Shown piece by piece: positions 15,018-24,599 of a stretch of DNA of 64,000 nt. Position 1 is the stretch's first letter. The number at the start of each line of letters is the position of its first letter. The DNA lies in NCBI GenBank assembly GCA_021806235.1, contig JAJZXU010000018.1, forward strand, positions 1 through 64,000, in the 5' to 3' direction. The notes below the pieces were generated by a model, which was given only the letters and a program-made list of their open reading frames with translations, made no database searches and was not told the DNA's origin. Position numbers and translations under genes: made by a program. This DNA is from Thermoplasmata archaeon. GTDB lineage: Archaea; Thermoplasmatota; Thermoplasmata; Thermoplasmatales; Thermoplasmataceae.

Positions 15018-15740
15018 TTATTCACCCTCCTCTACATTGTATTTAGACATCAAGGCATTTCTCTGAATTTCCGATATCCTTGGAATAGCATTCATCATCA
15101 TTGAGGTTGCCTCATCAAATTCTTCCTGTGATACCTTGCCATCAAGCTGCAATAAAACAATTTTTTTGGTTCTCGGCAGTATTGCCATGGGTATATCAGC
15201 CTCACCGAAATTATCCTCATCCTTTGATAAATCCAGAACCATTTTACCATCTGCCTTGCCTGCCGTACATCCAACCACCAGATCCCTCATTGGAACACCT
15301 GCATCTGCAACTGCCACTGAAGCTGTGGTTAAACTTGCTATCCTTGTTCCTGCATCTGCCTCAAGGACCTGTATAAAAACATCAACCTCTGCCCTGGGCA
15401 ATTTTTCAAGAACTATTGTAGATTCAAGTGCTTCGGTTATAACCTTTGATATTTCCATTGTCCTTCTATCTGGACCCGGACGTTTTCTTTCTTCTACGGA
15501 ATAGCCGGACATATTATATCTTGCCTTTACTATTGCCCTGTCTATATTCTGGGCATGCTTTGGATATGCTTCACGCACATAAACTGCTGCGATAATTTTA
15601 TTTGCCCCCCATTCTATATATGCGGATCCGTCCGCCTTTTCAACTACACCTGTTTGAATTTTAATTGGCCTCATTTCATTAAGGGCCCTGCCATCAAGCC
15701 TCAAACCATCATCTGTTATAAGCTTTATATTACTTTCCAT
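15018..15740 (-). CDS. rrp41: exosome subunit Rrp41 (catalytic RNase PH fold)
   Basis: 240 residues. This subunit carries the phosphorolytic 3'-5' RNase site of the archaeal exosome. 'GLRLDGRALNEMRPIKI', 'GSAYIEWGANKIIAAVY', 'RRTMEISKVITEALES' and 'EADAGTRIASLTTASVA' hold the RNA- and phosphate-binding Arg/Ser residues; the catalytic Asp lies in 'VVGCTAGKADGKMVLDLSKDE', given in parts. Its ATG overlaps the rrp4 stop (TAATG), and GGTGA precedes it. Confidence 0.96.
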   Translation of the reverse strand: MESNIKLITDDGLRLDGRALNEMRPIKIQTGVVEKADGSAYIEWGANKIIAAVYVREAYPKHAQNIDRAIVKARYNMSGYSVEERKRPGPDRRTMEISKVITEALESTIVLEKLPRAEVDVFIQVLEADAGTRIASLTTASVAVADAGVPMRDLVVGCTAGKADGKMVLDLSKDEDNFGEADIPMAILPRTKKIVLLQLDGKVSQEEFDEATSMMMNAIPRISEIQRNALMSKYNVEEGE

Positions 15741-16408
15741 TAATTTTCACCTTTCAGTTTCTTTAAATATTCTGACATTCTATCTGTCAAACCAATTATG
15801 TGTGCTTCTTTTTCAACTATTTTTATTGCTGTTATTGCATTGCTTACATTATCTACATCGCCATCAATCCATATAAAACCATTCTGCCCTACAATTACCC
15901 TGGTATCTGTTTCATTTTTTATCAGATTTATCATATTTCCACCCTTACCTATTACCCTGGGTACTTTAGGCGGTTTTACGGATATTATTCTTCCGATCTC
16001 GAGTTTTTTTAAGCCATTATCTCTTAATGTCAGCCAGCTCTCCTTTATTTCGTTTGATACAGAAATTTTTGCATATATATAATCCCCTATATTTAAATAT
16101 CTGCCTAAATCACCTGAAGAAACGTGCCATGGTGTATCGTTCATATGTAGTAGGGAATAGTATGGGGAATTTATATCCACCGTCCACATCGTTGCACCTA
16201 TATCCATTATCTTTCCTATAATTTTATCATTTGCCCTTGGTAAATATGGACTGTTAAAAGGAGCAATATCAATAAACTTCTCGCTTTTCTGAACAACACC
16301 AAAATATTCAGAAAAATATTCTGAATTGTTTTCGTACATACCATTTCTTGGCTTAAGATCATCTACATCGACCTTATCACCAGGATAAACTATCTGTTTT
16401 GTTTCCAA
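15740..16408 (-). CDS. rrp4: exosome RNA-binding cap subunit Rrp4
   Basis: 222 residues. It forms the cap with S1 ('GKIMDIGATMWTVDINSPY') and KH ('VPRVIGKGGNMINLIKNET') domains that guide RNA into the Rrp41/Rrp42 ring. The start is a TTG at 16408 with GGGTGA seven bases upstream; no ATG is suitably placed. Normally sdo1 lies directly upstream, but here about 730 bases with an IS605 relic intervene, so rrp4 may depend on readthrough or on a new promoter in that stretch. Confidence 0.95.
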   Translation of the reverse strand: METKQIVYPGDKVDVDDLKPRNGMYENNSEYFSEYFGVVQKSEKFIDIAPFNSPYLPRANDKIIGKIMDIGATMWTVDINSPYYSLLHMNDTPWHVSSGDLGRYLNIGDYIYAKISVSNEIKESWLTLRDNGLKKLEIGRIISVKPPKVPRVIGKGGNMINLIKNETDTRVIVGQNGFIWIDGDVDNVSNAITAIKIVEKEAHIIGLTDRMSEYLKKLKGEN

Positions 16409-16430
16409 TTATTTTCACCCTTAATTATTT

Positions 16431-16725
16431 TTATGAATGTATTCTACTTATATATTTATATTTGCCGTTACATGCCAAATAAAGTAAACCCGCTTCCTGC
16501 TTCATCCGGTGTGTTTGTTCTGCAGCGGTAACACCATGTCCACAGGCTTAAAATCGGGAATGTCTTTCCCTACTTTGTGTAAACCTATATTTTTAATGTT
16601 TATATTAAAGCCTTACCGGTACCTGGATCACAATCATTACATTTATAAATTCCATTATTAAATGTTAAATCTAAATTAATTATCTGTGAATTATCAGGGC
16701 AAATTCTAAATTTATAGGCTGACAT
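16431..16725 (-). pseudogene. tnpB: IS605-family TnpB relic with large internal deletion
   Basis: The first about 27 codons match the TnpB N-terminus ('MSAYKFRICPDNSQIINLD'). They run directly into a TnpB-like C-terminus: 'YKCNDC' (zinc knuckle), then in another frame 'INIKNIGLHKVGKDIPDF' and 'FKPVDMVLPLQNKHT', and in a third frame 'MKQEAGLLYLACNGK', which ends the protein at 16431. The catalytic core (about 300 residues) is missing and there are two frame changes. It cannot encode an active nuclease. Upstream (16755-16779) lies a hairpin of the type found at IS200/IS605 ends. Confidence 0.7.
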
Positions 16726-16754
16726 AATTACCTTTTCATCAGGATATCTCCAAG

Positions 16755-16779
16755 CTCCCCACCTATTCAGGGGTGGGAG
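16755..16779 (-). repeat. hairpin, probable IS200/IS605 end
   Basis: CTCCCCACC, a seven-base loop, then GGGTGGGAG: eight pairs with one bulge. Imperfect hairpins at the ends are what the single-strand transposase TnpA recognises. It sits 30 bases before the TnpB start, as expected for a left end. Confidence 0.5.
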
Positions 16780-17135
16780 GAATTGAAGGTTAAAGTTCAG
16801 CCCCTTGCCATACTTCCTTAGCTGTACCTTTTTTACGTTTACATCCATCTTTTTTCCTCCTTTTTTAATAATCACTTGTTTGCCAACACTATGGATTCCC
16901 ACTACGTCTCATTCCTCTTTCTGGAAAATAACAGGAGCTCCTGGTTGCAATGAATACATTCTCTTCCGTATAGAAGGTTTAAAGCCTTTTCTGTTCGGTT
17001 GCAGGCTTATGTGCTTCTTTTATGTATTTCTTTAATATATATGTTTGCATTAATCCCATAACCATGGTTGCTGGCTTTCCGCTTATATTTTACAGGCCTA
17101 TGGATAAAATATTTTTATTATAGCTCTATTATAAA
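16780..17135. other. degenerate sequence between the TnpB relic and sdo1
   Basis: About 350 bases with scattered, stop-interrupted minus-strand reading frames ('IRKRMYSLQPGAPVIFQKEE', 'KVQLRKYGKGLNFNLQ'). AAGGAGGAAAAAAG followed by ATG near 16850 looks like a start with a ribosome binding site, but only about 40 codons follow before the hairpin. This may be the remains of a second transposon-borne gene. No intact gene is visible. Confidence 0.4.
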
Positions 17136-17828
17136 TTATTTCAATAATTTTATGTCAACATCACCGTTAGTTTTTTTGTTTAGCATATCCATTAAATCTC
17201 CCTGCATTCCTGCAGGTATTTCTATTATGCACATATATTCACCTCCATTTGACCATTCCTCCTTTAATATGGTTCCGAACCTTACCAGATCGCCGTATAC
17301 CTTACCGTATGCATCCCCAGATAATTTTATGCCAAGCCTGGCCTTTTCCATTCTTATGGGTATCAGCGGCCTTATTGCCTTCAAAACCATCTGAACCTGG
17401 TCTTCAACACTTTTAAACGGGTCTATTCTGATTTTGGCTTCTTCCATTGCCTCCTCTATTCTTATAGCCGGTATAGGCGTATTTGTCTGTGGATTTGTGG
17501 ACTCCCTTACAATTTCACTGATTACCTGTTTCCTCTTGGATTCGACCATTTCCTTTCTCTGCTCCGTTGTTAACTGTATCTGGCCCTTCCTTAATATCTG
17601 TATGGCTATATCCCCTATATCGGATGTTTTAAATACCTTTTTTAATATTTCTTCGTTTGTTCTATCTCCTTTCTTTGCATCCTTGAAAACTTCCGGTATT
17701 GCTAAATCCTTTTCTATATCAATTTTCCCAGCTCTTATCCGTGATTCAGCATCTGGATCTACAAGTATTTCGAATTTATAACCATTATATTCATATTTTG
17801 CTATAACCGCATCATCAATATTTACCAT
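17136..17828 (-). CDS. sdo1: ribosome maturation protein SDO1/SBDS
   Basis: 230 residues with the three SBDS domains: N-terminal FYSH ('DDAVIAKYEYNGYKFEILVDPD'-type start, 'LAIPEVFKDAKKGDR'), a middle helical domain ('EQRKEMVESKRKQVISEIVRES') and a C-terminal ferredoxin-like domain ('IEIPAGMQGDLMDMLNKKT'). It releases the anti-association factor aIF6 from the large subunit, together with EF-2-like GTPases. It heads the exosome operon, separated from rrp4 by transposon debris. A 28-base palindrome lies just upstream. Confidence 0.96.
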   Translation of the reverse strand: MVNIDDAVIAKYEYNGYKFEILVDPDAESRIRAGKIDIEKDLAIPEVFKDAKKGDRTNEEILKKVFKTSDIGDIAIQILRKGQIQLTTEQRKEMVESKRKQVISEIVRESTNPQTNTPIPAIRIEEAMEEAKIRIDPFKSVEDQVQMVLKAIRPLIPIRMEKARLGIKLSGDAYGKVYGDLVRFGTILKEEWSNGGEYMCIIEIPAGMQGDLMDMLNKKTNGDVDIKLLK

Positions 17829-19141: not shown

Positions 19142-19585
19142 TTAAATAAGTTCAGTTTTTATATCCAGAGAATCAGCAATAAATTTTTGTTCCCTGTCTG
19201 CAGTAATAAATAATGAAGAATTATCAATGGATGAAACTATATGTATCATATCCGCAAGCGGTTTATGTAATTCCATGCAAATTTTGCTTGATTTTACCAT
19301 AATATTTACATTTATATTTATTAAGTCTATTGAATTAATTTTTGTTAAATTTTTAATTTCATTATAAAATTCCTGAAAATAATTTATGGCATTGTTTATG
19401 ATTTTTCTACGTTCTAATTTATCAAAAACTATTGAAATTTCACCTATTGTTAAAATTGAGGTAATTATTTTTATTTTGTTATTATAGGCATCATTAAATA
19501 ATCTGTCCAGATAATCCGAATTTTCTTCATTTATGTACCTTTTAACATATACACTTGTATCAAGGTAAACGTTCATCCATTTCAT
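19142..19585 (-). CDS. vapC: VapC-type PIN-domain toxin
   Basis: 147 residues. PIN ribonucleases cut tRNA or mRNA when free of their antitoxin. The acidic active site is visible: Asp in 'YLDTSVYVKRYI' (near 8), Glu in 'LTIGEIS' (near 48), and the Asp pair in 'KPLADMIHI' and 'FITADREQ' near the C-terminus. It overlaps the end of the antitoxin gene by 26 bases, the usual arrangement. Confidence 0.85.
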   Translation of the reverse strand: MKWMNVYLDTSVYVKRYINEENSDYLDRLFNDAYNNKIKIITSILTIGEISIVFDKLERRKIINNAINYFQEFYNEIKNLTKINSIDLININVNIMVKSSKICMELHKPLADMIHIVSSIDNSSLFITADREQKFIADSLDIKTELI

Positions 19586-19838
19586 CCCTTATTTTATCAA
19601 TTATATTTTTAGTATCTATAACTTTCATTTTTTTTCGTTCCTTTACTATTTTATCTGGTGATATATAATTATATTTAATACCAATACTTTCAAATGCATT
19701 ATCAAGTTCCTCCTCAAAATATAAGGTTTTTAAATTATTTTCAACAAAGGTGCTCAACGTCGTATTCTTTAATGCCAGTATTGACTTAGCCTTTTTTATT
19801 ACATCATCATCTATAGATAATGTTAATTTCCTTTTCAT
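19560..19838 (-). CDS. vapB: VapB-like antitoxin (DUF6364 type)
   Basis: 92 residues from the ATG at 19838, giving 'MKRKLTLSIDDDVIKKAKS', a ribbon-helix-helix start typical of antitoxins that bind their own promoter. The C-terminal half is charged and would wrap the PIN toxin. Upstream reading-frame extension is AT-rich promoter sequence (TATATAATTATATAC at 19841-19855), so the longer start is unlikely. Confidence 0.8.
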   Translation of the reverse strand: MKRKLTLSIDDDVIKKAKSILALKNTTLSTFVENNLKTLYFEEELDNAFESIGIKYNYISPDKIVKERKKMKVIDTKNIIDKIRDEMDERLP

Positions 19839-20028
19839 CAGTATATAATTATATACATATATAATATCATTTTGGTTTGATTGTGTAGTTTCGCTCTCCG
19901 TGGAATTCACCTTTTCAATATATTTAATTTAACAGAAAATATAACCATATAATTTTTTATAGGTAACAGCCAGAGATTAAGAGGTACATTATAAAAATTG
20001 TTAAATATATATTTTGAATGCTTTATTA

Positions 20029-23832: not shown

Positions 23833-24201
23833 TTACGTTATTATATTATAATCATTTTTTATGATTATTGCATTTTTTAATGCAAATTTCCATGAATTTT
23901 TAGATGGCATTTTTTCAGCTTCTTCCAGATCCCAGCATATTATATCTGCATAGGAGATGTTTTTATATAACTCTGGTAATTTAAAAGGCCGATCTATAAA
24001 TCTTATGTTTTTAAAATAATCCGATATTATTATAATATCCACATCACTCCATAAATTAAAATCCCCTCTGGCATATGATCCGAATAAAATTAATGTTGTC
24101 TTTCCTAATTTTTCTTCAAGTATATTTGAGTATTGCTTTAATGATAATATTACATTATCTCTATCCTTTGACCTCTTTGTGATTTCTTCATTCAAAGACA
24201 C
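23833..24201 (-). CDS. MNT-type nucleotidyltransferase (antitoxin of a HEPN-MNT pair)
   Basis: 122 residues. Minimal nucleotidyltransferase domain with 'LFGSYARGDFNLWSDVDIIII' seen as GSYARG (near 41) and SDVD (near 52), and the third acidic residue in 'YADIICWD' (near 87). MNT proteins modify or mask their HEPN partner. The gene overlaps the end of the HEPN gene by ten bases. Confidence 0.85.
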   Translation of the reverse strand: MSLNEEITKRSKDRDNVILSLKQYSNILEEKLGKTTLILFGSYARGDFNLWSDVDIIIISDYFKNIRFIDRPFKLPELYKNISYADIICWDLEEAEKMPSKNSWKFALKNAIIIKNDYNIIT

Positions 24202-24599
24202 CTTACCATCTCCCTTTTAACATGGAATATTATTATTTCAGCAGATTTTTTAGCTGTGATTGCATCATTTGCCGTAAAATGTTCCCATGGAGAGCCCTCG
24301 GCAAAGGCATCGGGATACCGTGGTGAAATATATAATTTGTCCAGGTATGAAACAGAATTGTGTACATCATCATTACCACTAAAAATGGCTGAAACCTCAT
24401 CATATAATTTTAACAGACCGTAACCAAAAGCGTTTTTGCCCAGTGCTTTTAGAATACTTTTTATTGCCATTTCAGCACATTGCTGGGACTTAAAGCATGC
24501 CCAGCTGTATCCACCATTATTAATATCTACATCTACTAAATTAAATGTATATAGTGCCTGATTGAACCATCTGTTAAATTCCTCACAATCTAAATCCAT
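24192..24599 (-). CDS. HEPN-domain protein (partner of the MNT gene)
   Basis: 135 residues, all-helical HEPN domain: 'WFNQALYTFNLVDVDI', 'YSWACFKSQQCAEMAIKSIL' and 'SPRYPDAFAEGSPWEHF' patterns. Many HEPN toxins are RNases with an R-x4-6-H motif; I do not see that motif here, so this may belong to the non-nuclease group. Forms an operon with MNT. Repeats at the start codon (24597-24618) may be an autoregulatory site. Confidence 0.82.
   Translation of the reverse strand: MDLDCEEFNRWFNQALYTFNLVDVDINNGGYSWACFKSQQCAEMAIKSILKALGKNAFGYGLLKLYDEVSAIFSGNDDVHNSVSYLDKLYISPRYPDAFAEGSPWEHFTANDAITAKKSAEIIIFHVKREMVRCL

Follow-up and report, generated by a model that had tools for sequence, protein, structure and literature searches.

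The ISC transposons were reportedly described by Kapitonov et al. in 2015 as elements that encode IscB and as nonautonomous relatives of the IS200/IS605 elements, and targets of the ATGA or GTGA type have been reported for them. Integration at ATGA or GTGA is likewise said to have been noted for HEARO elements by Weinberg et al. in 2009. The elements considered here resemble ISC transposons in possessing an IscB gene, hairpin ends and precise insertion beside a short target, and also in that a TnpA of their own was not seen. They differ from ISC transposons, as these are known to us, in their position at start codons, in an early stop within the left end and in a GGAGG motif within the right end, none of which has to our knowledge been described for that group; a title-level search of the literature, which covered few subscription journals, returned no publication on the start-codon position of IscB/HEARO insertions. 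IStrons and other intron-bearing mobile elements limit damage to host genes and splice out of the RNA. In contrast, nothing is removed from the message in the present case, and the flanking cistrons would instead be closed and restarted at the level of translation.

Passages of one report (PMC9755519) place HEARO and IscB in a single family. The elements described below conform to such HEARO/OMEGA (omega RNA) systems, as the RF02033 RNA is present in all eight elements that were searched, although our emphasis is on operon junctions and the re-made stop/start overlap in archaea. For IsrB, a relative of IscB, passages of another report give an NTGA/TTGA TAM for DtIsrB (PMC9581776). Both cases have a RuvC effector, an omega RNA and, on the 3' flank, a motif of the NTGA type, but IsrB, as presented there, has no HNH domain, which is present in the complete protein described below. 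What appears to be new is the translational fit of the IscB ends, the HEARO RNA and the ATGA-type targets being already known. We consider it likely that the locus reported here is a dead, nested relic, and that it belongs to a living IscB family that inserts 5' of ATGA or GTGA with ends that are tolerated within operons.

Nested transposon relics between sdo1 and rrp4

The locus lies in a stretch of 64,000 nucleotides from a Thermoplasmata archaeon, which is referred to as the window. Judged from its sequence, the interval between sdo1 and rrp4 is composed of two decayed RNA-guided transposons, one of the IscB type nested inside one of the TnpB type (Table 1).

Table 1. Features of the sdo1-rrp4 region, listed from sdo1 to rrp4 (positions in the window)
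Feature	Position	Strand	Basis
sdo1 (SBDS family), upstream host gene	17136..17828	-	Pfam SBDS_N, domain II, SBDS_C
Leftover ancestral sdo1-proximal spacer	~17104..17135, edge approximate	-	Resembles the start of uninterrupted spacers in relatives
TnpB-type element, left part up to the IscB entry point	17007..17103, edges approximate	-	Sister genome G002 (L165), which has it without IscB
IscB (ISC/HEARO) transposon relic, C-terminal coding part and right end	16740..17006	-	DNA matches and IscB alignment
Right-end hairpin of the IscB element	16756..16780	-	Found at this place in further IscB copies
Tetranucleotide ATGA targeted by the IscB element	16736..16739	-	Uninterrupted in G002
TnpB relic with a start codon at 16725 and several stops, its N-terminus fused to the C-terminal tail	16465..16735	-	
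Ancestral rrp4-proximal leader, GGTG ahead of the TTG start	16409..16464	-	Comparison with uninterrupted spacers of relatives
rrp4 (exosome subunit), conserved TTG start	15740..16408	-	Pfam KH_1, KH_6; RRP4_S1 just below cut-off

A preliminary description of this DNA proposed that a TnpB relic separates the two genes, that the TnpB N-terminus is joined directly to the C-terminus with the nuclease core deleted, and that an upstream hairpin represents an IS605-like TnpB end. The relic is indeed present, with its N-terminus joined to its C-terminus. Its N-terminus gives a match to HTH_OrfB_IS605 that is weak and below the curated Pfam cut-off (E 0.0046), and runs into a stop-bearing C-terminal tail that has no Pfam match but resembles, both as DNA and as peptide, the intact TnpB C-termini of relatives (NAAINIRNIGLIKVGKGIPE...); one of these intact TnpB proteins (L267) contains OrfB_IS605, Cas12f1-like TNB and HTH domains. 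An intact RuvC core is absent, having been deleted, with stops, and a similar core deletion is found in the sister genome G002. However, more than one third of the interval, including the hairpin, belongs to a different element. In a DNA search of the same genome, stretches of this segment recur at 14 further places with 75-94% identity, these copies being IscB C-termini, and the segment itself aligns with IscB residues 389-472, while the hairpin occupies the same place in other copies of IscB. Only a C-terminal IscB relic remains at the focal locus, the left end, the HEARO RNA and most of IscB having been lost. This relic is 1 nt shorter than the copy L002 near the right end, and its IscB frame consequently runs past the usual stop.

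Comparison of ten genomes of the same genus, including that of the window, provides a history for the locus. The sdo1 gene is located directly upstream of rrp4 in all ten, and in eight of these the two genes are separated by a spacer of around 110 nt without an insert. Ancestral spacer in common with the insert-free genomes is retained at both extremities of the interval (approximately 16431-16464 and 17104-17135). G002 contains the TnpB relic alone, with a similar deletion, and is uninterrupted (GAGAAAGT running directly into ATGAAAAGG) at the position occupied here by IscB; the IscB segment is found inside the TnpB relic only in the genome of the window among the ten. The TnpB element must therefore have arrived before IscB. 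Most simply, a TnpB-type IS605 element would have entered the sdo1-rrp4 spacer in the common ancestor with G002 and then lost its core, after which an IscB/HEARO (ISC) element would have inserted in the present lineage at the ATGA that closely precedes the start codon of TnpB, and would subsequently have been reduced by loss of the left end and of the larger part of IscB.

A single internally deleted TnpB element, possibly still mobile, would account for the N-terminus and C-terminal tail of TnpB and for a hairpin located upstream. We regard this as extremely improbable, since the hairpin and the adjoining segment match IscB and not TnpB, the relic contains many stops and a DNA search of the same genome (E <= 0.001) with the TnpB part returned one match, namely itself. 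The comparison with G002, which keeps the TnpB relic without the IscB segment, refutes it. A host gene was likewise rejected, because the relic is missing from eight of the ten genomes and carries stop codons, in keeping with the earlier assignment to a mobile element. The supposition that rrp4 would require readthrough or a new promoter fared less well: the part of the spacer next to rrp4, which includes an AT-rich stretch, is retained, and the TTG start with GGTG shortly upstream is kept in all ten genomes. As eight of these are insert-free, the insert did not create these features, and the conserved leader and TTG start argue that no new promoter would be needed. The nested relic is real, dead and ordinary, although assembled otherwise than first proposed; being decayed, with rrp4 still preceded by its own leader, it changes little.

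The IscB family in Thermoplasmata

When 61 genomes were searched for IscB, matches were obtained in 15, four of which (G017, G035, G051 and G054) matched in the HNH part only. The genome of the window contains 28 matches, followed by G001 (21), G013 (13) and G002 (11); the same search gave no IscB match in the single-contig genomes G004, G006 and G009 of the same genus. A complete IscB frame of 481 codons is present in L006, which shows Pfam matches to RRXRR (E 3e-66) and HNH_5 (E 9e-16) and in which RuvC motifs can be recognised by eye. The RF02033 hits exceed the gathering score in six of the eight elements searched. In L003, L005 and L009 the model starts at base 1 of the element, so that the upstream gene would contribute its final bases as the guide and ATGA would act as the recognition motif, as read from the positions of ATGA and the HEARO RNA only.

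No TnpA was seen within any IscB element. There are nine matches to Y1 transposase in the genome of the window; the IscB left-end motif was seen in none of these nine loci, and five carry a different right end, GATGTCAC. Separately, 17 IS605-type ends with the flank GTGACATC were noted in this genome among the matches listed; the loci concerned, with those of the Y1 matches included, are L021-L042 and L174-L182.

Empty sites and insertion boundaries

Five sites in the genome of the window were examined for uninterrupted counterparts in 27 site-by-genome alignments: S15/recJ, nuoA/nuoB, rpoH/rpoB, mre11/rad50 and pdaD/leuS (the names S15, recJ, nuoA, rpoH, mre11 and pdaD were assigned by reading). 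Once the element is taken out and its flanks are joined, the sequence matches contiguous DNA of the same genus at all five, and at four of them the junction falls exactly at ATGA. The clearest empty sites, in which the slash denotes the junction, are gttct/ATGATAAAAGA in G005 (also given as gttct/ATGATAAAA) and both ataaa/ATGATAATACA (also given as ataaa/ATGATAAT) and gtaaa/ATGAGTGAG in G002. These uninterrupted sites indicate that insertion of IscB elements is precise, adjoins a short target and proceeds without duplication. At the leuS site the other five aligned genomes have ATGG, so that conservation does not extend to the target at this place. At the mre11/rad50 site the other genomes have diverged at their upstream ends, which align with gaps, and the left boundary at the rpoB site (L006) is uncertain by a few bases.

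At two sites, sister species carry dissimilar elements at one and the same ATGA, although flank identity is 95% or higher. At the S15/recJ site an element of 1037 bp (L003) corresponds to one of 452 bp (L088), the two being 79% identical at the left part, with flanks that are 95-96% identical. At the nuoA/nuoB site, L005 and L090 are different elements when compared at the right end only. Such cases could result from a new insertion for which the same flank served as guide, or from exchange between copies.

Most right ends are located at start codons

Right ends were collected in 56 rows, 55 from the IscB search together with L086, and 49 of them were scored. Five rows (L081, L098, L107, L110 and L128) were left unscored for want of a recognisable right end, as were L115, where the contig stops just past ATGAAAAA, and L111, in which the right end is followed by ACG and which counts against a start-codon reading. 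In 45 of the 49 scored right ends the RTG immediately after the element opens a frame of at least 54 codons, and in 43 the frame extends to at least 150 codons; the two shorter frames are that of the RNA polymerase subunit Rpb6/RpoK (L124, 54 codons) and an unassigned one of 78 codons (L010). No gene is opened by the remaining four (L001, L080, L114 and L117), and the focal copy, itself one of the 49, counts among the misses. The right end of L086 was located by a pattern that contains ATGA, and the count without it is 44/48; it becomes 44/55 if all dropped rows are taken as misses. The tetranucleotide is ATGG in L108 and L112. Five pairs represent one site in two genomes, and after removal of duplicates 40 of 44 distinct sites conform. 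Pfam matches were obtained for 12 of 14 downstream frames examined, the exceptions being L010 and L103, and the genes concerned include rpoB, a NuoB-type oxidoreductase, a Rad50-type ATPase, a class I tRNA synthetase and NAD kinase, as well as polyprenyl synthetase, NOG1, TrmB and thiolase.

As a background, 70 of the 837 ATGA sites in the window open at least 150 codons. Simple gene calls (68 genes) place 41 of the 1142 RTGA sites of the window at starts (28 at called starts and 13 within the first 25 codons), 124 between genes and 977 inside genes. When the 40 of 44 distinct sites are compared with the start and intergenic RTGA sites only (41/165), p is approximately 3e-20. The agreement of the IscB insertions with gene starts and with junctions within operons is striking. 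It is possible that the start-codon position reflects survivorship, because insertions inside genes get lost: ATGA is a short sequence, and most RTGA sites lie in genes, where insertion would be harmful. Yet intergenic RTGA sites outnumber those at starts, even though the latter were counted generously, and few elements are intergenic.

Stops, overlaps and a putative ribosome-binding motif at the element ends

In the genome of the window, the empty sites of L003, L005 and L009 are true overlaps, in which the TGA of the upstream gene lies within the ATGA of the next, and on entering the left ends of these elements the upstream frame reads five codons before a stop (STTHD or SATHD, then the stop). 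Left ends were located for 18 of the 49 elements; the coupled frame meets a stop after 5-12 codons in 16 of these, and after 17 and 22 codons in the others. In four of the 18 elements with both ends, the site is a true overlap and the gene upstream is long, L003 and L088 among them occupying the same site; others are situated 0-2 nt past the stop of the preceding gene or lack a near neighbour on the upstream side.

At the opposite end, 48 of the 49 copies have a stop in the IscB frame that falls between -1 and +4 nt relative to the start codon, the exception being the focal copy; L088 has an additional stop 20 nt earlier, and IscB-frame stops farther upstream were left uncounted. This placement means that an overlap of the ATGA or TGATG type is formed anew at the right end, or that the IscB frame closes immediately ahead of the start, and it holds even in copies from which IscB has mostly been deleted. 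Of the 49 right ends, 38 have a GGRGG motif between -16 and -5, and the motif is present at 33 of the 44 distinct sites. It precedes none of the 68 called gene starts in the window, and only two of the 68 genes when any in-frame start within the first 25 codons is allowed, which is the fairer control given that control starts were the first start codon of each long open reading frame in the window and that the true start can be missed. The 16S rRNA of the same organism ends GGATCACCTCC. Archaeal ATGA and TGATG overlaps with SD motifs support reinitiation, according to passages of a report on such overlaps (PMC6728339). The ends of the IscB elements thus look ready for translation, which points to a translational role. 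The right ends are related by descent, and for this reason the GGRGG motif and the stop placement do not constitute 49 independent observations. The motif may also be conserved for recognition by the transposase or for IscB coding.

IscB loci of the wider family

From 289 IscB loci in a wider family, 80 of named genomes were kept and 75 were analysed for right ends; 69 loci entered the RTGA count after removal of six in which the sequence past the IscB stop was shorter than 400 nt. In 34 of the 69, the interval from -8 to +130 nt relative to that stop contains an RTGA that opens 100 codons or more, compared with 11/66, 12/63 and 12/63 in shifted control windows. The fourth base is not specific, the fractions of RTG followed by each base that open 100 codons being 0.39 for A, 0.41 for C, 0.35 for G and 0.13 for T. 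The start-codon signal is weaker in the wider family and is not restricted to A at the fourth position. The arrangement nevertheless recurs in several groups, for example in the Methanosarcinales/Methanoperedens (L230-L234), which have CCACGGAG ahead of the ATGA and an IscB stop on its TGA, as in the Thermoplasmata copies. It is found without GGAGG in others, among them L201, L219, L238, L256, L258 and L260, and the bacterial right ends examined mostly lack GGAGG.

A model for insertion at operon junctions

We propose that a Y1 transposase (TnpA) supplied in trans would place the element directly 5' of ATGA or GTGA, and that IscB with its HEARO (omega) RNA, guided as outlined above, would cut copies of the empty site and so favour retention. 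As ATGA is common as a stop/start overlap in operons, the element would come to sit between two cistrons, where it would be tolerated. The left end would provide the upstream frame with an early stop, the IscB frame would end on the TGA of the target so that the ATGA (or TGATG) overlap is re-made, and the right end would bring a strong ribosome-binding site (GGAGG) before the displaced start codon. That the ends are translationally seamless, making the element a near-neutral additional cistron even ahead of rpoB, with the same ATGA sites re-used by different elements in sister species, is a proposal to which we give about even chances. If correct, it would explain how RNA-guided transposons, which are related to the ancestors of Cas9, can be maintained in archaeal genomes with densely packed genes: the motif chosen would be that of gene junctions, and the signals carried would close one gene and restart the next. 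Where introns act at the RNA and inteins at the protein, insertion of this kind would be a strategy that acts through translation. The filled and empty sites form a natural set that is available for studying translational coupling in archaea.

The principal alternative is that elements insert at any ATGA and that copies inside genes are purged, in which case the GGAGG motif and the stops would merely follow from the coding sequence of IscB and from recognition of the right end, and would be devoid of a translational role. This is a possibility to be taken seriously, albeit one that we consider somewhat doubtful. The shared descent of the right ends is in its favour, as is the frequent lack of GGAGG in start-codon right ends of distant relatives. 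It does not readily accommodate the excess of GGRGG over the window genes, or the stop of the IscB frame that falls on the overlap in nearly every scored copy.

Deleted copies of IscB

Internally deleted copies of IscB elements appear to move. L004 and L005, on separate contigs, possess one identical deletion junction, and another is common to L012 and L088. The earlier proposal that internally deleted elements can still be mobilised is hence better suited to the IscB family than to TnpB, for which it was made. In L004 (1055-1768) and L005 (1508-2218) the nuclease core is deleted and the frame remains open over 211-213 codons. The two copies differ mainly at third codon positions, with dN/dS of 0.22-0.27, and shortened in-frame open reading frames are also present in L002 and L009. 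It is conceivable that the proteins encoded by such deleted IscB copies (209-302 codons, nuclease core missing) have been co-opted to serve the genes that follow them, either as small regulators or as leader cistrons. We find this unlikely: trees reach supports of 16-45 at the nodes that bear on a single deleted ancestor of L004 and L005, so that the constraint may predate the deletion, and the short copies L003, L010 and L012 have broken frames.

Other genes in the window

Two further pairs of genes were observed in the window. A PIN-domain protein (Pfam) that overlaps a small upstream frame at 19142-19910 resembles a toxin-antitoxin pair, and an MNT-like nucleotidyltransferase is paired with a HEPN protein (Pfam) at 23833-24599.
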